Shown piece by piece: positions 9,870 through 40,004 of a stretch of 40,004 nucleotides of DNA (the first letter of the stretch is position 1; each line of letters begins with the position of its first letter). The DNA is from a virus: positions 1 to 40,004 of the IMG/VR virus record IMGVR_UViG_3300025087_000178; one strand, written 5' to 3'. The translations under genes and the position numbers were made by a program. Under the pieces are notes generated by a model. That model ran no database searches. It saw only the letters and a list, made by a program, of their open reading frames with translations, and was not told where the DNA came from.

Positions 9870-10757
9870 ATGGGACACGCTGTCAAAGGGAAAAAAAATG
9901 CCAGACGTTTTGGCATTGCGGAGATACGAAAAACAGTAGAGGATGAAGGTTTTGCATTAGGCTATGGCACGACCTCCGTTTATCATCTGGAGGAGTTGTA
10001 CGGGAAGATTTTATCGTTGTCCGCAAAAGTAAAAGTTCTTGAAACTTGCAGAGAGGAATTGTCAGCCTTAGTGCAAGAGCAAGAAAAGGAGACAATAAAA
10101 ATGGCTAGACCAAAAAATGATAATAAACGTAAATCCGCGATTGCATTGGTAATCGCAATTGCGGCGGCGGGAACGTTTCTTGTTGCGCGTCCTGAAAGCA
10201 AGAGATATGTAATCGCCACCCCCCCGTATGATAGCCGCGAGGTGTTCACGGTTATTGACACGAACACGATTCCTGGCTGGATTGAAATAACGCCAGGGGT
10301 ATATCAGGAAAATCCTGACGGTGATAAATATGTTAGGCAGGATTTAGATGGCGGAATGTGGCAGGGGGATATATTCAGGACTGCGACTCCGTCTGCGACA
10401 TCATCTATCACGCCCCCGCCGACAGTCACATCTACGCCGACTATAACATTGACGCCGAGCCTGACGCCGCTCGTGCCTGTGATTTATACATTGACATTCA
10501 CGCCAACAGCCGCGCCGTCTGTGGTTAGCCAGATACCGTTTTTTGTGGAGGTGCTAGTAGATAAACTGTCCATCTATGGATACGCATCGTGCGCGGGTGC
10601 AGTGAAAGGCAATCTCGCCAAACATGGGACGATTGAAATTTTGGAGGTGACGAGCCATAACGGGAAAGATTATTGCGGCAAAATTGGGAATAAATTGTTT
10701 ATCCCGTTGGTGGTTGGTGGTGTGTCGTTTACGAGTTGGAGCTATGGAGAAGAATGA
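9870..10757 (+). CDS. Thr/Pro-rich membrane-anchored protein with two candidate starts
   Basis: The long form (295 aa from 9870) has a basic N-terminus and a coiled-coil stretch. It is followed by an in-frame ATG at 10101 with a much stronger AAAAGGAGA site, giving a 218-aa short form that begins just before a basic patch and a membrane helix (SAIALVIAIAAAGTFLVA). A Thr/Pro linker of TxTxTPS type follows, then a C-terminal domain of about 75 residues with two Cys. The linker is typical of exported Anaerolineae proteins (knowledge of the group). It sits between the receptor-binding genes and the lysogeny module, ending at a bidirectional terminator. Role unknown; lysis, envelope modification or adhesion are all possible. 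Confidence 0.6.
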   Translation: MGHAVKGKKNARRFGIAEIRKTVEDEGFALGYGTTSVYHLEELYGKILSLSAKVKVLETCREELSALVQEQEKETIKMARPKNDNKRKSAIALVIAIAAAGTFLVARPESKRYVIATPPYDSREVFTVIDTNTIPGWIEITPGVYQENPDGDKYVRQDLDGGMWQGDIFRTATPSATSSITPPPTVTSTPTITLTPSLTPLVPVIYTLTFTPTAAPSVVSQIPFFVEVLVDKLSIYGYASCAGAVKGNLAKHGTIEILEVTSHNGKDYCGKIGNKLFIPLVVGGVSFTSWSYGEE

Positions 10758-10825
10758 TGAAAAAACATGATAAACCTATAAAAATTTTGGAACGATGGAT
10801 AATCGAACACCTAAAAAAAGAAACA

Positions 10826-10854
10826 AAAAGACCACGTTATGAGCGTGGTCTTTT
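10826..10854. terminator. Bidirectional rho-independent terminator
   Basis: The stem AAAAGACCACG pairs perfectly with CGTGGTCTTTT around a 7-nt loop. It is A-rich on the left and T-rich on the right, so it can work for the rightward tail operon and for the leftward recombinase gene. The recombinase stop codon lies in the loop. Confidence 0.85.
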
Positions 10855-22161: not shown

Positions 22162-22435
22162 GTGAACAAGTGAACAGAAAATGCCTGCTGAGGGTGCAAT
22201 ACATTATGTTTTGTATCCTGTGGCTGAAAAGTGCTTCACTTGTTCATTGGACGGTAAAAATGGCTTTTTTGAGGCTTTTACCCTTGTTTTTGGTCACTTA
22301 CTTCATTATTTACTATCTATATATATATGAAGAAGTGAATAAGTATGAACAACATGGTAACAGTATGCGTCAATTTGCCTTGTATGTAATGAACAAGTGA
22401 ACTTCAAAAAAATGGCATGTTCATAGACGTTCACT
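22162..22435. other. Iteron-like repeats: candidate replication origin
   Basis: The 12-mer TGAACAAGTGAA occurs exactly at 22163-22174 (+), 22235-22246 (-) and 22390-22401 (+). It occurs with one mismatch at 22328-22339 (+) and in a degenerate form at 22294-22305 (-). GTTCA half-sites lie at 22419 and 22429. An AT-rich run (TACTATCTATATATATATG, about 22312-22329) lies in the middle. The cluster directly follows the primase-helicase gene. This is the layout of an iteron origin, though no RepA-like initiator was recognised. A 76-codon hydrophobic frame across it (22170-22400) is probably not a gene. Confidence 0.65.
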
Positions 22436-22502
22436 AAATTCCTGTTACTTAGGCACTTACTACCCCAAAAATGGCGAAATTGTCAGACAATTGGAGCAAA
22501 AT

Positions 22503-22790: not shown

Positions 22791-23083
22791 ATTCCGTTTT
22801 GGTAAATAACCCGGCGTTGGATCGCTATTTTGTGGACCAAGATCTGAGGGAGTGGTGTGATGGTTGGTGGATGAAATTCCGCTTTGGTGATGTGCTGGTG
22901 TTGATTTTGAATGAGTACCAGTATTTTACCGAGATGTGGGTGTGGCACATGGGAAGTTTGAAATTTATTGAATATGTGAACTATGCGGATGTGATGGACA
23001 TTTTGAACCTGTTGGCGCAAGAGGTTGAGAAGGTGCCCAGCCTGGAATATCCGTTGGTTGTGGAGGGAGTTTGCGATGAATAG
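22787..23083 (+). CDS. Hypothetical protein (98 aa)
   Basis: It starts at the ATG overlapping the previous stop, with GGAG 9 bases upstream. Aromatic-rich: DLREWCDGWWMKFRFGDVLV and YFTEMWVWHMGSLKFIEYV. It looks like a compact alpha/beta protein. It belongs to the gene run leading to the ParM-like gene and overlaps the next gene by 8 bases. No family recognised. Confidence 0.55.
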   Translation: MNSVLVNNPALDRYFVDQDLREWCDGWWMKFRFGDVLVLILNEYQYFTEMWVWHMGSLKFIEYVNYADVMDILNLLAQEVEKVPSLEYPLVVEGVCDE

Positions 23084-23948
23084 TGAGCCGCGTGTTTGGA
23101 AGTGGATGGTGCCTGCGATGGCGATGGTGGCGATGATCCCGCTGGCGATGTGGGTGACGATGATTGCGGAGCGGAATACGTGGGAGTGGTTTGGGTTTTG
23201 CAGTTATCTAGTTTATGGTCTGATGCCAGTGTTTGGCTTGCAGGCTTGGGCGGCGTACCAGGCATATTATCGCCATTTGTCTGTGCAGGATTACATTGAT
23301 AAGCGGAATGCGATGACAACCACGGCGGAGACTCGTTTGTTTGATTATGCACACACAATGCACCCCGACACAGTAAAGATGCTGTTGATGCATAGGAAGT
23401 CGAAGTGGCGGGTGAAGGAAACAAAATTGACTGAGTTGGTGGATTGGGTATTGGATGCTGATCCGCGAATTCATGCGGGATTGGTTGAGTATGTGCTTGA
23501 GCATTCGACACAATATGCGATGATGGCAATGAGCAATCATTTCAGTGACAAGGCTTTTTCTTTTGACCCTGAAAAACTGATCACGGACTATGAGCAATAT
23601 CGGGCGTTCCATCGGTTGTTGGTGAATCGGATGATGGCGACTGAGGCATTGGGTAATCAGCCGGGGCAGTGGATCGAGCCATGGAATCCTGAGTTGGTGG
23701 CAAGACAGTTTGGGATTGGGCTGGAGGAGGATGCAGAGGAGGCGGTGATGATGGAGGTGCCGAAGGTTGATGAGGCACAGAAGATGGTTGCAGTTCAACC
23801 TCGGGCAGTTGTAGAGGAAGAGGATGTAGCGACTGATGCGGAGATGGCAAAGGTCAGAGAGCTGCAAGAAGAACATAGGCGCAGGTTTGGAATGGACGTA
23901 AGGCAATATTTGGAATTGAAAAACAACCAATTAAAAAAGGAGAAATAA
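23076..23948 (+). CDS. Membrane protein upstream of parM-like gene
   Basis: A 290-aa protein from the ATG at 23076 with GGAG upstream. Two membrane helices lie at about 10-32 and 40-65 (VWKWMVPAMAMVAMIPLAMW and FCSYLVYGLMPVFGLQAW). A cytoplasmic helical domain follows, with an acidic C-terminus rich in Val/Glu and a final REL..EHRRRFGMDV region. It ends 3 bases before the ParM-like gene. A membrane link to partition or replication is conceivable; no family recognised. Confidence 0.55.
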   Translation: MNSEPRVWKWMVPAMAMVAMIPLAMWVTMIAERNTWEWFGFCSYLVYGLMPVFGLQAWAAYQAYYRHLSVQDYIDKRNAMTTTAETRLFDYAHTMHPDTVKMLLMHRKSKWRVKETKLTELVDWVLDADPRIHAGLVEYVLEHSTQYAMMAMSNHFSDKAFSFDPEKLITDYEQYRAFHRLLVNRMMATEALGNQPGQWIEPWNPELVARQFGIGLEEDAEEAVMMEVPKVDEAQKMVAVQPRAVVEEEDVATDAEMAKVRELQEEHRRRFGMDVRQYLELKNNQLKKEK

Positions 23949-23951
23949 GCA

Positions 23952-24926
23952 ATGGAAACAAAAACAATGATCTCGGTTGGTTTCGACGGTGGGTTTGGCG
24001 GCATGAAAATGTGGAGTCATGCTGGCGGGTTGGAGATGCTTTCTCAAGTGGCTACCAATGGCGGCGGGCATTTCGAAGGGATGATCGGTCTGAAACAAAC
24101 GGAGCGTCCGTTGATGATCGAGACTACAGACGGCCAATTCTATGTTGGGGCGCGGTCGCACAATTACGGGCGGCGGGTTGAGAACATGAGTTTTGATCGT
24201 TTCGGTGGAAGTCCTGAGATGCGGGCGATGGTGTACGGTATTTTCACGAAATATATCGAAACCAACGGCGCTTTCGATGCTCCGCTTTCGGTGATGGTGG
24301 GTCTTCCGCTGGCGATGATGGGTGAGGATTTGAAGGAAAGCCGTCTTGCCATTCGCCGCTGGATGATCGGGCGGCATGATTGGGAGGCAAACGGCAAGCC
24401 TTACAGTGTGGAAGTGGGGCGGGTGCGCTGGAATTCGCAACCTGTGGGCGCGCTGTTTGATTATGTGATGAATTTTGACGGTCAGCCTGTGGCAGGGCAT
24501 GAGCGCGCTTTGCGTGAGCGCATTGGCGTTTTGAGCGTTGGAATGAACACAGTTGAAAAGATGGTGATCGATAACCAGACGTTGAATGAGGCTTTGACTG
24601 ACAGCGATAAACTCGGCGTCCGTCGCCTACTGGAATTGACTGGTGTGAAAATGTCGATTGGTGAGCGGGATGTGATGCTGCGCAATGGAAACCTAAAATA
24701 TAAAGATAAATTGCCTGTGTGGGCGAGTGAGGTCAACGGGTGTATCGAGCGAAAATGGGGAGAGGATTTGGAGAGCTTTTCAGCGGTGCTGGTGGTTGGG
24801 GGCGGGGCGCTGTTGCTGGGTAATATGCTCAATCTGGTTGCAGGCGGTGTGAATAAGGCAGTTGTTACTGAGAACCCTGTCCTTTCGATTGCGAGCGGGC
24901 TTTATAAACTGGATAAGGCAAAATAA
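23952..24926 (+). CDS. parM: ParM/StbA-like actin ATPase (plasmid partition)
   Basis: A 324-aa protein with actin-family features. The phosphate-1 loop is GFDGGFGGMKM at 10-20 (DxGxGxxK with D12, G14, G16, K19). Phosphate-2 is weak (VLSVGMNTVEKMV, without the usual DIG). The adenosine motif is VVGGGALLLG near 285-295. Length matches ParM (about 320 aa). The gene directly downstream has the right size for the adaptor ParR. Such filaments push sister plasmids apart. On a phage genome this points to an extrachromosomal, plasmid-like prophage state (inference). The symbol is by family similarity only. Confidence 0.7.
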   Translation: METKTMISVGFDGGFGGMKMWSHAGGLEMLSQVATNGGGHFEGMIGLKQTERPLMIETTDGQFYVGARSHNYGRRVENMSFDRFGGSPEMRAMVYGIFTKYIETNGAFDAPLSVMVGLPLAMMGEDLKESRLAIRRWMIGRHDWEANGKPYSVEVGRVRWNSQPVGALFDYVMNFDGQPVAGHERALRERIGVLSVGMNTVEKMVIDNQTLNEALTDSDKLGVRRLLELTGVKMSIGERDVMLRNGNLKYKDKLPVWASEVNGCIERKWGEDLESFSAVLVVGGGALLLGNMLNLVAGGVNKAVVTENPVLSIASGLYKLDKAK

Positions 24927-24928
24927 AA

Positions 24929-25228
24929 ATGGCGGCTCCGAAGAAACCCGGCAAGGTACGACATTTTCATATTGATCCTTATTTGAGGGTCAAGCATGAT
25001 GATCTATCAATGTCGTTTGCCAATGATAAAAGGGTTGATCGTTTTCTAATCTGGTGGGATGGATTGCCATCCCGCCAGCGGACGAAAATGGCGCTGGAGT
25101 TGTTGGTTGCCGCGTGTAATGGTGAGCTGGGGATTGCGCCTGGTGTCGTGATGGAAGGTAACGAGAGCGCGGAGAATAAGTCTGCGCTGGATGAGTTATT
25201 GAAGAATATGGTGTTTGATGAAGAATGA
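24929..25228 (+). CDS. Candidate ParR-like partition adaptor
   Basis: A 99-aa protein starting 2 bases after the ParM-like gene. It has a basic N-terminus, a possible ribbon-helix-helix segment (RHFHIDPYLRVKHDDLSM), helices with RVDRFLIWWDGLPSRQRTKMALELLV, and an acidic tail. ParR proteins are small DNA-binding RHH proteins encoded right after ParM, and this fits in size and position. The RHH assignment is tentative. Confidence 0.5.
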   Translation: MAAPKKPGKVRHFHIDPYLRVKHDDLSMSFANDKRVDRFLIWWDGLPSRQRTKMALELLVAACNGELGIAPGVVMEGNESAENKSALDELLKNMVFDEE

Positions 25229-25250
25229 TCCTGGTTTTGATTTGCTTTTG

Positions 25251-25376
25251 AATTTAACCGTCAATAATGGAAAATTTCAATTTAACCGCTAATAACCCCC
25301 CTCCCCCAGTTGCGTGTTTTGTGCGTGCGCTGGCTGTGGACATAGAAATGGACATCCTCCCTTGATGGGGGAGGGG
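25251..25376. repeat. Direct repeats and inverted repeat downstream of parR-like gene
   Basis: AATTTAACCGTCAATAA (25251-25267) and AATTTAACCGCTAATAA (25279-25295) are direct repeats 28 bp apart. CCCCTCCCCCA (25298-25308) pairs with TGGGGGAGGGG (25366-25376). The gap 25229-25392 holds no gene. The direct repeats could be part of a partition centromere (parC-like) or operator, though two copies are few. The C/G-rich hairpin resembles the one after the capsid gene. Confidence 0.5.
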
Positions 25377-25848: not shown

Positions 25849-26167
25849 AAAGAAAATGAAACAATGGCGTTGTAGGAATAACCATATCCTCGGATTTATC
25901 CGCTGGAATGGGAATGGCTTGCCGCAGCTGATGGTACTGCGGGAGGCGTTGGATATGGATGTGGAGCATCCGCATGATGTGGATTCGTTGGGTCCGCTGG
26001 ATGGGCGGATGCCGATCAGGTGCTCAATTTGCGAAGACGTGCAGGTGTGGCAGATCAATGCGTTGAGTCTGGTTTCTCTGTTTATTCAGTTGGATGATGC
26101 AGAGATGTTCAAGTTTTCGCAGACGTTGTTAGAGTTGAATAGAAAGTCAGAGGCGAGTGATGGCTAA
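25841..26167 (+). CDS. Small zinc-finger-like protein
   Basis: A 108-aa protein starting at the ATG 6 bases after GGAGG. WRCRNNHILGFIRWNGNGLP near the start and RCSICEDVQVW near residue 65 form a C..H..CxxC set compatible with one zinc site. This layout (CRN.H.LG..RxNG followed by VRCxxC) is frequent in small phage proteins. Function unknown, probably nucleic acid binding. Confidence 0.6.
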   Translation: MDEKKMKQWRCRNNHILGFIRWNGNGLPQLMVLREALDMDVEHPHDVDSLGPLDGRMPIRCSICEDVQVWQINALSLVSLFIQLDDAEMFKFSQTLLELNRKSEASDG

Positions 26168-26918
26168 GAATTCTACAATCAATTGGACAGACCATACTGC
26201 GAATTTTTGGTGGGGTTGTCAAAAGGTAAGCGACGGATGCAAAAATTGTTATGCCGAAACATTTTCAAAGCGTTTTGGAAAACACATCTGGGGTCCCGTT
26301 GAGACGACGAGCCGCGAACGTAAGAAGGCGATTTGGAATGATATTTTGAGGTGGGATAGGGAAGCGAAGACTGACGGAATTCGGCGGCGCGTGTTTGTTT
26401 CGAGCATGAGTGATTTTCTTGAGGATCATCCGCAGGTTTTTGAGTGGCGTGAAGAGGCAATGAATATTATTGAGCGATTGGAGTATCTGGATGTATTGTT
26501 ATTGACAAAACGCCCAGAAAATGCTTATTTGTTGGGTGATTGGAATGAGTTTGGATTACCCGCGCATGTATGGTTTGGAACGACAATCGAAAACAACAAG
26601 CAAATGCAAAGAATGATTGATGCGTTGACTGTGCCAGCGAAGATCCATTTTTTTAGTGTGGAGCCGATGCTTGAATTTGTGAATATGAATTTTCCGTCCC
26701 AGCCAAACTCTAAACGCGATACATGGGTGATTTGCGGTGGTGAGAGCGGAGCGGGTTGCAGACCGTTTGATTATATGTGGGCGCGTGATCTGCGCGATCA
26801 ATGCAAGCTGGCGAATGTACCGTTTTGGATGAAGCAGGCGGGTGGGCATCCGTATGCGCGGCATCAGATGGAGGATTTTCCGAACGATCTAAAAATTAGG
26901 GAGTTGCCTAATGAGTAA
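26160..26918 (+). CDS. DUF5131 / phage Gp37-Gp68-like Cys-cluster protein
   Basis: This 252-aa protein starts at the ATG at 26160. It has INWTDHTANFWWGC, then SDGCKNCYAE (C-x6-C-x2-C), the hallmark of the DUF5131 phage Gp37/Gp68 family, followed by VFVSSMSDFLED, LLLTKRPEN, HVWFGTTIENN, and VICGGESGAGCRPF. The family has a radical-SAM-like barrel and Cys cluster; its substrate is not established to my knowledge. It lies directly upstream of the integron integrase, overlapping its start. Confidence 0.8.
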   Translation: MAKNSTINWTDHTANFWWGCQKVSDGCKNCYAETFSKRFGKHIWGPVETTSRERKKAIWNDILRWDREAKTDGIRRRVFVSSMSDFLEDHPQVFEWREEAMNIIERLEYLDVLLLTKRPENAYLLGDWNEFGLPAHVWFGTTIENNKQMQRMIDALTVPAKIHFFSVEPMLEFVNMNFPSQPNSKRDTWVICGGESGAGCRPFDYMWARDLRDQCKLANVPFWMKQAGGHPYARHQMEDFPNDLKIRELPNE

Positions 26919-27897
26919 GTTGATGGATGAAGTTGTGGATAAGATGCGGATGTTGCATTTGTCACGCAAAACTATAAAGGCATATTCTGCAAAGATCCAT
27001 GAATATGTTCTTTTCACTGGCGCAAAACAACGAAGCGATTTGAACGATACAAGCAAAATCGAGAAGTATTTGACTTATCTGGCGACTGCGAGACGTGTGA
27101 GCGCGTCATCACAAAATCAGGCATTTTATGCGGTGTTGTTTTTATATCGTGAGGTGTTGAAAATCGAGGTGGGGAATGTCCAATCATTGCGCGCTCAAGA
27201 AGGTAAAAGACTTCCAACAGTTTTGAGCAAAGCAGATACGATGCGCGTTTTGAACTGTGTACATGGCGATCCATATCATTTGATCTCACAATTATTGTAT
27301 GGTTCGGGAATGAGGTTGAGCGAAGTGCAACAATTGCGCATCAAGGATATTGGTTTTTCCGCTTATGTGATTATGGTCCGCGCTGGAAAGGGCGATAAAG
27401 ATCGGACGGTGCCACTTCCAAGAAGTTTGGAGAAACCTCTGCGAGATCAGATTGGGATTGCACGGAATTTACATAATATCGATGTCCAGCGTGGTATGCC
27501 TGGCGTTTATGTGCCGAATGCGTTAGATGTGAAGTACCCAAATGTTGGAACTGAATGGGGATGGTTTTAGGTTTTTCCTGCGGAGAATTATTCGACTGAT
27601 CCTGAGACGAAAATTTATCGCAGGCACCATATTTATGAAACTGGAATTCAGCGCGCGGTAAAGGCGGCACGGCTTGAGGCTGGTGTCGCAGGTCATGTGA
27701 CGCCGCACACATTTCGCCATTGTTTTGCCACCCATCTTTTACAGGATGGATACAACATTCGAGTTGTGCAGGAGTTGCTTGGACATAAAGACGTGAAAAC
27801 TACCATGATCTATACCCATATCATGATGCCTGGTGGTCAGGCTGGTGTTGTCAGCCCGCTGGATAAGATGCCAGTGGAGGACATTATCCGTTTGTAG
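26911..27897 (+). pseudogene. intI: IntI-family integron integrase with one in-frame TAG
   Basis: The frame would encode 328 aa but has a TAG at codon 220 (27568-27570). Upstream are R135 (GSGMRLSEVQQLRIKDI) and K160/K163 (GKGDKDR). Downstream, in the same frame, are [21 protein letters not shown]266 and R269 (PHTFRH), H292 (LLGHKDV) and Y301 (TTMIYTH), ending [10 protein letters not shown]. The stretch YPNVGTEWGWF-stop-VFPA aligns with WPWFWVF of IntI1, so the TAG replaces Trp, one G-to-A change. The IntI-specific insert (STDP..RRHH) sets it apart from ordinary XerC/D. Without suppression the product lacks the second half of the active site. It is followed by attI and cassettes. Annotated as a probable recent pseudogene. 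Confidence 0.88.
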
Positions 27898-31195: not shown

Positions 31196-31980
31196 TGAAC
31201 AACGGACGTTTGGAAAAACCAGTTTATCAATTGCCGCTTGGTTTTGACCTGGTTGGCATCGAGGAAGCCGCACAGCAGGATGAAAGGCTTTCGAGTGAAG
31301 CCGCGCTTACGGCTCTTTCGGCTTTGCGGATGAAAGAGCCGATCATTCAAAAAATTCGCGCCAAAGATATTGAAACCAATAAGGTCATTGAAAAGGATGA
31401 GGTTATTGGCGAGCGCGAAGTTGAGCCGCGCTGGATGGATTTATTCAAACGTTTGAATCAAGGCGGTTGGAAGTGGCGCGTGGCTGTTTATATCGCCTGG
31501 GCTTCGCAACCGAAGAAATACCGCTGGCCAGAGACTCAGGAAGAGCTTGCAGTCAAATGCCTTGGACTGACTTCAGACCGCGCGATTGCCACATGGCGCA
31601 AGAAAAACGACACGATTGACGAAACGATATCCATGCTTCAAGGCTCGATCATCTTCGACGCATTGCCCGATGCGTTGAATGCGATGGTGGAGGTTGCAAC
31701 TGAGGCTGATTACAAGGGTCATGCGGACCGCAAGTTGATGTTTGAGATGGGCGGCATTTATACGCCGTCCTCGAAGATCACGGCGGAAATTGCGAAGAAA
31801 CTCAGCAAGAGCAATATGGATGAAAACGATTTGAGCGACGCTGAGTTGCGGGATATTGCAGGTGCGGCACAGCATGAGTTGGAAAGGCGAGCCACCCCCC
31901 TGCCTCTGAGTACAGAGGCATCCCCCCAAATCGAAGAACACGATTTGGAGGGAGAAGAGCCGAGCGAGGAACTTGAATAA
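31195..31980 (+). CDS. terS: Terminase small subunit
   Basis: A 261-aa protein directly before the large terminase, overlapping by one base. The pattern WRVAVYIAWASQPKKYRWPETQEELAVKCLG followed by a TWRKKN helix (given here in parts: residues 100-145) fits the HTH of phage terminase small subunits of the phBC6A51 type. The C-terminus is acidic and disordered. It should recognise packaging sites on phage DNA. Confidence 0.75.
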   Translation: MNNGRLEKPVYQLPLGFDLVGIEEAAQQDERLSSEAALTALSALRMKEPIIQKIRAKDIETNKVIEKDEVIGEREVEPRWMDLFKRLNQGGWKWRVAVYIAWASQPKKYRWPETQEELAVKCLGLTSDRAIATWRKKNDTIDETISMLQGSIIFDALPDALNAMVEVATEADYKGHADRKLMFEMGGIYTPSSKITAEIAKKLSKSNMDENDLSDAELRDIAGAAQHELERRATPLPLSTEASPQIEEHDLEGEEPSEELE

Positions 31981-33581
31981 TGGCAAATGCGGCGACACGA
32001 TTGAAGGTATCACCAAATAGCGCACGGGCAGAAATGGCTCGGCGTGAATTGGCGCGTCGTCATTTGATTGATTACAGTGTTTATGTTGCGCCTTGGTATC
32101 AACCTGCAAAACATCATATTTATCTAGCTGAAAAACTTGAGCAGGTGAAGCGATTTATTGAAACAAAAGGCGCTGAGGGTATCGGGCGGTTGTTGATCTG
32201 TGAGCCTGCGCAATATGGGAAGACCGAACAGGCAAGCCGCTTATTTCCTTCGTGGTTGCTTGGTGATTTACCCGATACGCGCATCATTCTCACATCCTAT
32301 GGCGCTGACCTGGCTACGGAAAACAGCCGTTATACGCGGAATTATGTGGGTAGTGATGCTTATGCAAATATCTTTGGCGCGCGCTCTGCGGTTGACGAAC
32401 CCGTCGAACTCAGCCCCGAGAGCAGATCTGTGGTTTCCTGGAACTTGAAGGGCCATCGTGGATCTGTTTTTGCGGCTGGTGTTGGCGGTGGTATCACGGG
32501 GCGCCCTGCGAACCTGGTCGTGATCGATGACCCGTTCAAAAGCCGCGAAGATGCGGAGAGTGAATCGTATCGCAAGAAGGTAATGAGTTGGTATCGCTCG
32601 GTCATTTATCCGCGTGTTGCGAATACGCCAGGCGCGGCGATCATCATCATGCATACGCGTTGGGATCAGGAAGATTTGGCGGGTCAACTATTGACCCAGA
32701 TGATCGGCGATTCTGAATCAGATCAGTGGGATGTTGTGTTCCTGCCCGCTTTAGCTTTGGATGAGGATAAATATCCGAAGACAGAAGCAGAATACCGCGA
32801 GAATTTATTACGCGGAATTTACATTCCCATGGCTGCGGATGGCGATCCTTTGGGGCGTGCGCCAGGTGAACCGTTGTGGCCAGAACGATCTGACGCGAAG
32901 AAACTTGCGAACACACGCGCAAACATGATGGATCAGGATTTTGAGTCCATCTTCCAGCAGATGCCGCGTATGGCGGAAGGCGAGTTCTTCGATGATAAGG
33001 ATTTTGGAATTATCGAGAAGGCGCCCGAAGGCTTGCAGTGGTATCGCTATTGCGACCTGGCGTTGGGAATGTCGCAAACCAGCGATAAGAATTCAAGCAT
33101 CGCTGTGGCTTTCGATGACAAAACGGGCGACCTGATTTTACGTGATCGGATCAAGGTACGCGAGTTAGACGAGTTCATGGCACAGGTCAAAACCGCCATG
33201 CTTTCGGATGATGAACTCAATACCGAATGGGGCATTGAAGAGAATGCTTTTCAGTTGCTGGTAGTAAAGGATTTTTTGAAAGACCGCACATTGGTGCGAG
33301 TGCGTATCCGCGGCGTGAAGGCTGTTGGAGATAAGGTGGAACGGGCACGCCCCTGGCAGCGTCGCGCAAAGCAGGGACATGTGAAGCTGGTACGCGGGAT
33401 ATGGAATTTGGATTTTATCCGCGAGGTAACTTCATTTTCGCCAACATGCCGCCATGATGATGATGCGGATTCGGTCAGCGGCGGCGTGCAGATGATCGAG
33501 GATGACGGCGGGGATATGAAGACTGCGAGCAGTGAAGCGATTGTTGTGAGTGCGGAAGATTTATTTTCAATGCAAGTATGA
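31980..33581 (+). CDS. terL: Terminase large subunit
   Basis: A 533-aa packaging ATPase-nuclease. The Walker A-like motif is CEPAQYGKT at 74-82 (deviant, as in many phage terminases), Walker B LVVIDDP at 179-185, then MHTRWDQEDLAGQL. The nuclease domain has CDLALG with an acidic start near 355, IEENAF near 420 and CRHDDDADS near 495. It follows the small subunit and precedes the capsid genes. All expected regions are present. Confidence 0.93.
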   Translation: MANAATRLKVSPNSARAEMARRELARRHLIDYSVYVAPWYQPAKHHIYLAEKLEQVKRFIETKGAEGIGRLLICEPAQYGKTEQASRLFPSWLLGDLPDTRIILTSYGADLATENSRYTRNYVGSDAYANIFGARSAVDEPVELSPESRSVVSWNLKGHRGSVFAAGVGGGITGRPANLVVIDDPFKSREDAESESYRKKVMSWYRSVIYPRVANTPGAAIIIMHTRWDQEDLAGQLLTQMIGDSESDQWDVVFLPALALDEDKYPKTEAEYRENLLRGIYIPMAADGDPLGRAPGEPLWPERSDAKKLANTRANMMDQDFESIFQQMPRMAEGEFFDDKDFGIIEKAPEGLQWYRYCDLALGMSQTSDKNSSIAVAFDDKTGDLILRDRIKVRELDEFMAQVKTAMLSDDELNTEWGIEENAFQLLVVKDFLKDRTLVRVRIRGVKAVGDKVERARPWQRRAKQGHVKLVRGIWNLDFIREVTSFSPTCRHDDDADSVSGGVQMIEDDGGDMKTASSEAIVVSAEDLFSMQV

Positions 33582-39270: not shown

Positions 39271-40004
39271 TGTTTATCATGGAAAGTAAGACCACGAAGT
39301 TGATCGAAAGGCTTGATGAAGTGGCTTTGGGCAATTTGGACAAGGCTTCTTTCAAAGCTCTTTTGCGGTTGCAGGTTTATTTCACTGGAAGAACGCATGA
39401 GCTAATGATCGAGTTCGGCAAGCAGGCGCGCGCGGTGATCGTGGATTATGGCGGGGCGGATGGAACGTTGGGTGGCTCCACTGGCTTTCAGGCTCAGACC
39501 AAATTGCTGAAACTTTGGGGCGATACATTCAAGACCTGGGTGGATGAGTTTTTGCAGGCGCGGCGTGAGGCTGTGAGTTTGCCGTTTGGGGTGCTGGCGG
39601 TGAGGCACGAAAGGCTAGTAAGACCAGTGATTAGTGATCAGTTATCAGTGATCAGTGAAAGCATTGAAGACGGTGTGTTCAAGCCGCAGATTGAGATTTT
39701 GTTGACGGCGGCGGGGGAGCATTTGTATGGTGACTCGTTGAATATCTCTTCGCGCATCTGGCAGATCGATGGGTTGGGACGCGATGCGATCAACCAGGTC
39801 ATCATGCAGGGCATTACCGATGGGGATTCAGCTTGGAACATTGCGAAGAAGTTGGAAGAATTTTTGGGCGCGGGGCAGGACTGTCCGCGCTGGACTTCAA
39901 CGAGGTTATATGGACGAACGGCATCTGATAAATCCGCTGGGGATACGACTGGCTTGCTCAGTGGCAATGATTGCGATGGGCGCGGCGTTAGCTATAACGC
40001 TCTG
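39270..40004 (+). CDS. MuF-like minor head protein, N-terminal part (continues at base 8)
   Basis: The gene starts on the last base of the portal stop and runs off the right end; the last 126 bases equal 8-133, and the frame continues to 541 in the circle. The N-terminal 200 residues are helical with LLRLQVYFTGRTHELMIEFG and a GITDGDSAWNIAKKLEEFLG segment typical of SPP1 gp7 / MuF proteins. A TGATCAGT repeat is inserted in frame at 39626-39658. Confidence 0.85.
   Translation, partial: MFIMESKTTKLIERLDEVALGNLDKASFKALLRLQVYFTGRTHELMIEFGKQARAVIVDYGGADGTLGGSTGFQAQTKLLKLWGDTFKTWVDEFLQARREAVSLPFGVLAVRHERLVRPVISDQLSVISESIEDGVFKPQIEILLTAAGEHLYGDSLNISSRIWQIDGLGRDAINQVIMQGITDGDSAWNIAKKLEEFLGAGQDCPRWTSTRLYGRTASDKSAGDTTGLLSGNDCDGRGVSYNAL
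39626..39658 (+). repeat. In-frame AGTGATCAGTTATC-type repeat in MuF-like gene
   Basis: About 33 bases of palindromic AGTGATTAGTGATCAGTT units encode VISDQLSVISES. The same repeat type is found in cyanobacterial and Chloroflexota genomes (recollection). It fits an exact multiple of codons, so the gene stays open. Confidence 0.6.
39879..40004. repeat. Terminal direct repeat, right copy (circular junction)
   Basis: Identical over 126 bp to 8-133. See the left copy; together they show that the molecule is circular or circularly permuted. Confidence 0.9.

Follow-up and report, generated by a model that had tools for sequence, protein, structure and literature searches.

Does a ParM/ParR-like gene pair on a phage genome mean that the phage persists in its host as a plasmid? 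The question is raised by the IMG/VR virus contig IMGVR_UViG_3300025087_000178, whose entire 40,004 bp are referred to here as the window. An earlier note on this DNA had recognised the layout of a type II plasmid partition system and, together with circular ends and an iteron cluster, had taken it to imply a lysogenic state as a low-copy plasmid. We favour another reading, to which we assign a probability of roughly 55%: the genes form a ParMRC/AlpACS-like cassette that acts on the excised circular DNA of an integrating temperate Anaerolineae phage. Such a cassette is not proof of plasmid life, because close relatives sit in host chromosomes, and it probably serves to move or anchor DNA after excision. 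The features on which the argument rests are collected in Table 1.

Table 1. Features of the window relevant to partition, replication and integration (positions in bp of the 40,004-bp contig).
Feature	Position	Strand	Evidence or remark
Large serine recombinase (Resolvase, Recombinase and zinc ribbon), 549 aa	10837..12486	-	Family matches
XerC-like tyrosine recombinase, 348 aa	16509..17555	+	Family matches
DnaG-like primase with Toprim domain, 1045 aa	19024..22161	+	C-terminal part has a weak ATPase-like match
Iteron cluster, TGAAC-type repeats, G+C 36%	22163..22440		Between primase gene and partition operon
Protein with hydrophobic N-terminus, 5' of actin gene	23076..23948	+	Conserved in most relatives
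ParM-type actin-like protein, 324 aa	23952..24926	+	Pfam, PHROG, PDB profile, AlphaFold2 model
ParR-like small protein, 99 aa	24929..25228	+	Basic N-terminus, predicted helices, conserved C-terminus
Candidate parC, two direct sites TTTGAATTTAACCGTCAATAA and TTTCAATTTAACCGCTAATAA	25247..25295	+	TTAACCG pair, conserved
Inverted repeat CCTCCCCCA...TGGGGGAGG around conserved GTGCGTGCGCT	25300..25376	+	Adjoins candidate parC in about half of relatives
Terminase large subunit	31980..33581	+	Used for finding relatives and host

The first gene of the pair is an ATG-initiated ORF of 324 codons. Its product matches Pfam ALP_N (2.4e-8) and PHROG 691, annotated 'partition protein' (1.9e-24), as well as the NCBIfam ParM model at 4.7e-9, a value under the curated cut-off of that model. 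A profile of 12 relatives compared with the PDB recovered pCBH ParM (1.2e-9), CorM (4e-6), Alp12 and pSK41 ParM. The AlphaFold2 model, built from 11 aligned sequences, adopts an actin fold (pLDDT 83, pTM 0.84) and is closest among solved structures to pSK41 ParM (E 1.2e-17, TM 0.73); the next 27 rows of fold matches are all ParM-type actins (ParM, Alp12, Alp7A, AlfA, CorM) or Ta0583. By both sequence and fold the protein is a ParM-family actin, as the earlier note had proposed from its length, and the structure prediction that it had suggested as a check bears this out.

Two bases downstream, on the same strand, lies the ParR-sized ORF, likewise ATG-initiated and with 99 codons, again as previously described. 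Each of the 17 loci compared has a small ORF on the 3' side of its actin gene, either directly or past one inserted gene (G009, G011 and the virus Rctr41k). The inserted gene, in ORFs read by eye, is methyltransferase-like in each of these (L034, L038 and L002, respectively). In the small protein of the window the N-terminus is basic and may form a strand (VRHFHIDPYL), helices are predicted at residues 34-44 and 48-63, and the C-terminus is a conserved hydrophobic helix, ALDELLKNMVFDEE. Alignments reaching down to about 20% identity keep the basic N-terminus, the helical pair and the C-terminal helix, examples of the last being ALDELLKNMV, AAKDIMANFVVE and SAIDDFLK, and it is possible that this C-terminal tail binds the actin. 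A ribbon-helix-helix (RHH) fold is plausible. The monomer model, of low confidence (pLDDT 68, pTM 0.44), places two helices in the RHH positions and has no strand; the RHH strand forms only in the dimer. Searches with the small protein returned no family, profile or fold match. The ParRs of chromosomal ParMs are likewise too divergent to be compared by sequence (PMC12270681). Of the type II layout, the actin fold and the ParM-ParR gene order thus stand, while the RHH fold of the second protein is not demonstrated.

Directly 3' of the small gene are two 21-bp direct repeats (25247-25267 and 25275-25295), with TTAACCG at 25254 and 25282, 28 bp from start to start. A TTAACCG pair 27-28 bp apart adjoins the actin and small genes in 12 of 15 phage genomes or contigs; the rest of the 471,439 bp examined contains no further such pair, and none arose in first-order Markov simulations of those genomes. 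The pair is 5' of the actin gene in G002, where the spacing is again 28 bp. One exact and one altered copy are present in G009, G016 has an altered arrangement, and in G027 the only copy is located 20 bp ahead of the actin gene. Centromere-like repeats beside the partition genes are a mark of type II (ParMRC) systems, and on its sequence the paired TTAACCG is a candidate for such a site (parC). Where relatives share the neighbouring inverted repeat, it reads CTCCCCCAC...GTGGGGGAG with a GTGCGTGCGCT-like core; a consensus RNA fold of this element gave no convincing structure common to all its members.

The iteron cluster reported by the earlier note exists, and its position is conserved, although it is modest. 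It contains three exact copies of TGAACAAGTGAA and one with a single mismatch (22163-22401) and is the second most repeat-dense 350-bp segment of the record; allowing up to two mismatches, the genome-wide count of TGAACAAGTGAA is 9 against 4.7 expected, which is not significant. In G001, G004, G012, G016 and G026, as here, the most or second most repeat-dense segment is found some 1.7-2.1 kb upstream of the actin gene. The TGAAC-type motifs differ between genomes (TGAACAAGTGAA, ATGTTCATA, AGTGAACATC, ATGAACCAGATGA) and their position is constant. Since the cluster is directly behind the primase gene, it is probably the replication origin. We also considered it as a centromere, which is not our first choice: a motif that drifts at a fixed position right behind a primase gene behaves as an origin would, and it is the TTAACCG pair instead that tracks the ParM/ParR genes.

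The departure from plasmid ParMs lies in the active site. The window actin retains Asp12 of the phosphate-1 motif and has the adenosine motif VLVVGGGALLL, but its phosphate-2 motif is LSVGMNTVE, with Ser195 in place of the catalytic Asp of ParM (xSxGxxTxE here versus xDxGxxTxD in ParM). This Ser aligns onto the Asp of pCBH ParM. The Asp, linked to hydrolysis in type II (ParMRC) systems, is absent from all 17 members of the clade (Ser in 14, Trp in two, Thr in one). It is present in all four distant ParM-like actins found in Chloroflexota genomes (L152-L155, in G220, G100, G425 and G346). R1 ParM carrying the D170A substitution keeps static filaments and loses their dynamics (cited in PMC5539076). 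With the phosphate-2 Asp gone, we predict slow or static filaments here and no dynamic instability. Gln163 is invariant and may correspond to the second catalytic position. With the catalytic Asp lacking and the adaptor fold unproven, we do not class the system as a canonical ParMRC. The clade amounts to a natural series of ParM relatives that have lost a residue thought essential for filament dynamics and yet retain adaptor and DNA sites, and would allow a direct test of whether DNA positioning needs dynamic instability.

How the phage probably lysogenises is indicated by its full-length large serine recombinase (Resolvase 1.7e-14, zinc ribbon 1.5e-10), a probable phage integrase conserved in G001, G002, G009, G011, G014 and G016 and present in a short form in Rctr41k. 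Two Anaerolineae bins contain junctions between a related integrase gene and the chromosome, at the point at which a circular phage map would be expected to open. In GS16 (G022), most of whose phage pieces share 70-85% identity with the window, only one gene is a close relative of the integrase gene; about 30 bp separate its end from a gene for a membrane protein that all 61 of the searched genomes of the family possess, and M19 peptidase and S1-domain genes come next. The tail genes, sought in GS16 for the second junction, were not found, and the usual neighbour gene is located elsewhere. In SURF_68 (G027), contig C107 runs through HhH-GPD, asparaginase II, integrase, XerC-like recombinase, topoisomerase and residues 27-588 of the primase, while contig C22 picks up the primase at residue 616, with actin, small protein and terminase following. 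The two contigs appear, from their sequences, to be joined through the same primase gene with a break of about 30 codons, and on that inferred join SURF_68 has actin and adaptor genes on a chromosomally integrated prophage, as in AlpACS. The chromosome is on the 3' side of the integrase gene in both bins, and attP is therefore expected in the 80-bp gap between the tail gene and the integrase (10757-10837). These junctions represent one side per insertion, in relatives rather than in a lysogen of the window phage itself, and MAG contigs can be mis-binned. More distantly related prophages in G024 and on G025 contig C7 sit beside apparent host genes and have no actin gene; integration as such can therefore proceed without the cassette. 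The 3' side of the conserved Anaerolineales membrane-protein gene looks like an attachment hot spot in two genomes (L195, on G022 contig C413; L208 and L211, in G188): in G188 a related integrase with a short element, which looks only a few kb long and may be a remnant or a satellite, lies behind the same gene.

As the earlier note had held, the record closes circularly: a 126-bp direct repeat joins its ends (8-133 is identical to 39879-40004). The relative G002 closes with exactly 127 bp. Repeats of such length in two different genomes suggest an overlap left by assembly with k-mers of 127 bases, and not a terminal repeat of biological origin. A contig that closes on itself is equally what one would see of a plasmid, of a replicating circle or of terminally redundant packaged DNA, and the literature has the general caveat that circularity of a phage contig does not separate these states (PMC8026635). 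Terminase relatives at 94% and 84% are located in Anaerolineae bins (L064, L065), which supports Chloroflexota as the host, in agreement with the earlier assignment. When IMG/VR was scanned with the actin as a single protein, true relatives were overlooked; an alignment and the terminase brought them to light.

A true phage-plasmid would maintain its lysogen as a low-copy circle by means of ParM/ParR, with the XerC-like enzyme resolving dimers and the serine recombinase used rarely or for another purpose. The ParM-ParR layout, the XerC-like recombinase, the iteron cluster beside a primase gene and the circularly closing contigs in two records (the window and G002) are all consistent with this, the window phage does combine partition with replication functions, and there is precedent in the Bacillus phages IEBH and B83, which encode a ParM-like protein together with an RHH adaptor and whose prophages are proven plasmids (PMC8026635). 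On the other side, the large serine integrase is conserved and lies at chromosomal junctions in GS16 and SURF_68, where the prophage of a phage-plasmid would be extrachromosomal; the end repeats look like the overlap of an assembler k-mer; and none of 72,556 plasmid records contains a close homologue. We consider this explanation improbable and, because relatives are found integrated, do not class the phage as a phage-plasmid, so that the proposed plasmid lysogen is not supported, although a dual life style is possible. The earlier note would have given up its reading had such a protein always been found integrated in chromosomes; integrated relatives do exist in two bins, but two cases do not make 'always'. 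No work on phage-plasmids of Chloroflexota came up in the literature searched.

A further explanation accepts the cassette but denies it a role in segregation. Static, Asp-less filaments would keep phage DNA at one site during its replication, possibly at the membrane with the aid of the product of the gene upstream of the actin gene (also listed from a TTG at 23025). That product has a hydrophobic N-terminal segment in 10 of 10 phages examined and, judging from this segment, is possibly membrane-anchored. The replacement of Asp throughout the clade and its retention in the four distant relatives favour a scaffold, as do the static filaments of ParM D170A and the proposal that AlpC brings phage DNA to the membrane (PMC4446434). 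However, another residue could supply catalysis, with the invariant Gln163 at hand, and several relatives have a different gene, in some of them an FtsK/HerA-like one, at the place of the upstream gene. Loss of the catalytic Asp and the presence of the upstream protein make an anchoring scaffold a serious alternative to active segregation, but on balance we consider it improbable. Its more specific form, in which a ParM actin has turned into a hydrolysis-poor scaffold that holds excised DNA for replication by means of a two-site centromere and a membrane-anchored partner, is similarly improbable; if true, it would give integrating Chloroflexota phages a dedicated cytoskeleton. It is very improbable that the locus has nothing to do with partition, the actin serving another role and the paired sites being an operator or promoter element of the operon. 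The RHH fold is unproven, the sites are intergenic and could be regulatory, and they stay unchanged while the small proteins diverge to about 20% identity; yet actin, small protein and sites occur together in 12 of 15 phages, the sites switch to the other side of the operon in G002, and the C-terminal tail of the small protein is conserved.

We therefore return to a partition-like cassette on an integrating phage. The phage would lysogenise through insertion into the chromosome by its serine integrase. The small protein would bind the two TTAACCG sites just 3' of its own gene, and its C-terminal tail would tie the resulting DNA complex to actin filaments. Following excision or infection, the cassette would act on the circular phage DNA, either positioning it or splitting copies between daughter cells, in the manner of AlpACS on prophage CGP3 and SrpMRC on SXT/R391, two integrating elements. 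We infer the DNA binding, the filaments and the stage of action by analogy with such systems.

Of the systems compared, virus Rctr41k (KX853513, from a DAMO/AAA enrichment) belongs to the same phage lineage and is collinear over most of its genome. It shares the actin (59%), small protein (51%), terminase (55%) and paired TTAACCG sites, and differs in having another ORF between the actin and small genes, an intact second tyrosine recombinase and a short serine-recombinase ORF (220 aa). Its sequence is public, with the actin and small protein annotated only as hypothetical. AlpACS of prophage CGP3 in Corynebacterium glutamicum likewise combines an actin, a small DNA-binding adaptor and repeated sites on an integrated prophage (PMC4446434, PMC5539076), and its alpS consensus TTAAnnG fits TTAACCG, which may be chance. 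In AlpACS, however, the adaptor gene comes first and the sites are upstream, in the promoter region, whereas the order here is actin, small gene, sites; AlpC, moreover, is aligned in the paper with the conserved actin residues D156 and G158, and the Asp is lost in the window clade. SrpMRC of the SXT/R391 ICEs also places ParM-like and ParR-like genes on an integrating element and has been shown to act as a partition system that reduces loss (PMC4489591), but that element is conjugative rather than a phage, and its centromere is upstream with four repeats. Plasmid ParMRC systems (R1, pSK41, pCBH) share the actin fold and the parM-parR order, and in the PDB the window actin is best matched in sequence by pCBH ParM and in fold by pSK41 ParM; the window cassette differs from them in lacking the catalytic Asp, in having only two sites, 3' of the small gene, and in residing on an integrating phage. 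The Bacillus phage-plasmids B83 and IEBH are phages with a ParM-like protein and a small adaptor, B83 also having Xer recombinases (PMC8026635), but they are plasmid prophages for which no large serine integrase is listed. In a phylum whose phages have been little studied, the window offers a clear case against treating the presence of partition genes as evidence enough that a phage lives as a plasmid.

Several observations concern neighbouring genes and related loci. On contigs C3 of G025 (L168-L169) and C15 of G056 (L173-L174), actin and small-protein genes lie beside an FtsK/HerA-like ATPase and a XerC-like recombinase at loci without phage structural genes; they probably represent integrative elements, or islands resembling plasmids, that share these partition genes. 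A gene for a DUF5131 protein (9.6e-59, 26157-26918) separates the partition genes of the window from those for a second tyrosine recombinase (26911-27897, + strand), which is 67-82% identical to the Rctr41k protein. The latter is a clear integron-integrase homologue (TIGR02249, 9e-115), and an integron-type integrase on a phage is itself worth attention. In the window this second recombinase is interrupted by one in-frame TAG (27568-27570), the single such stop, just past the EWGWF motif.
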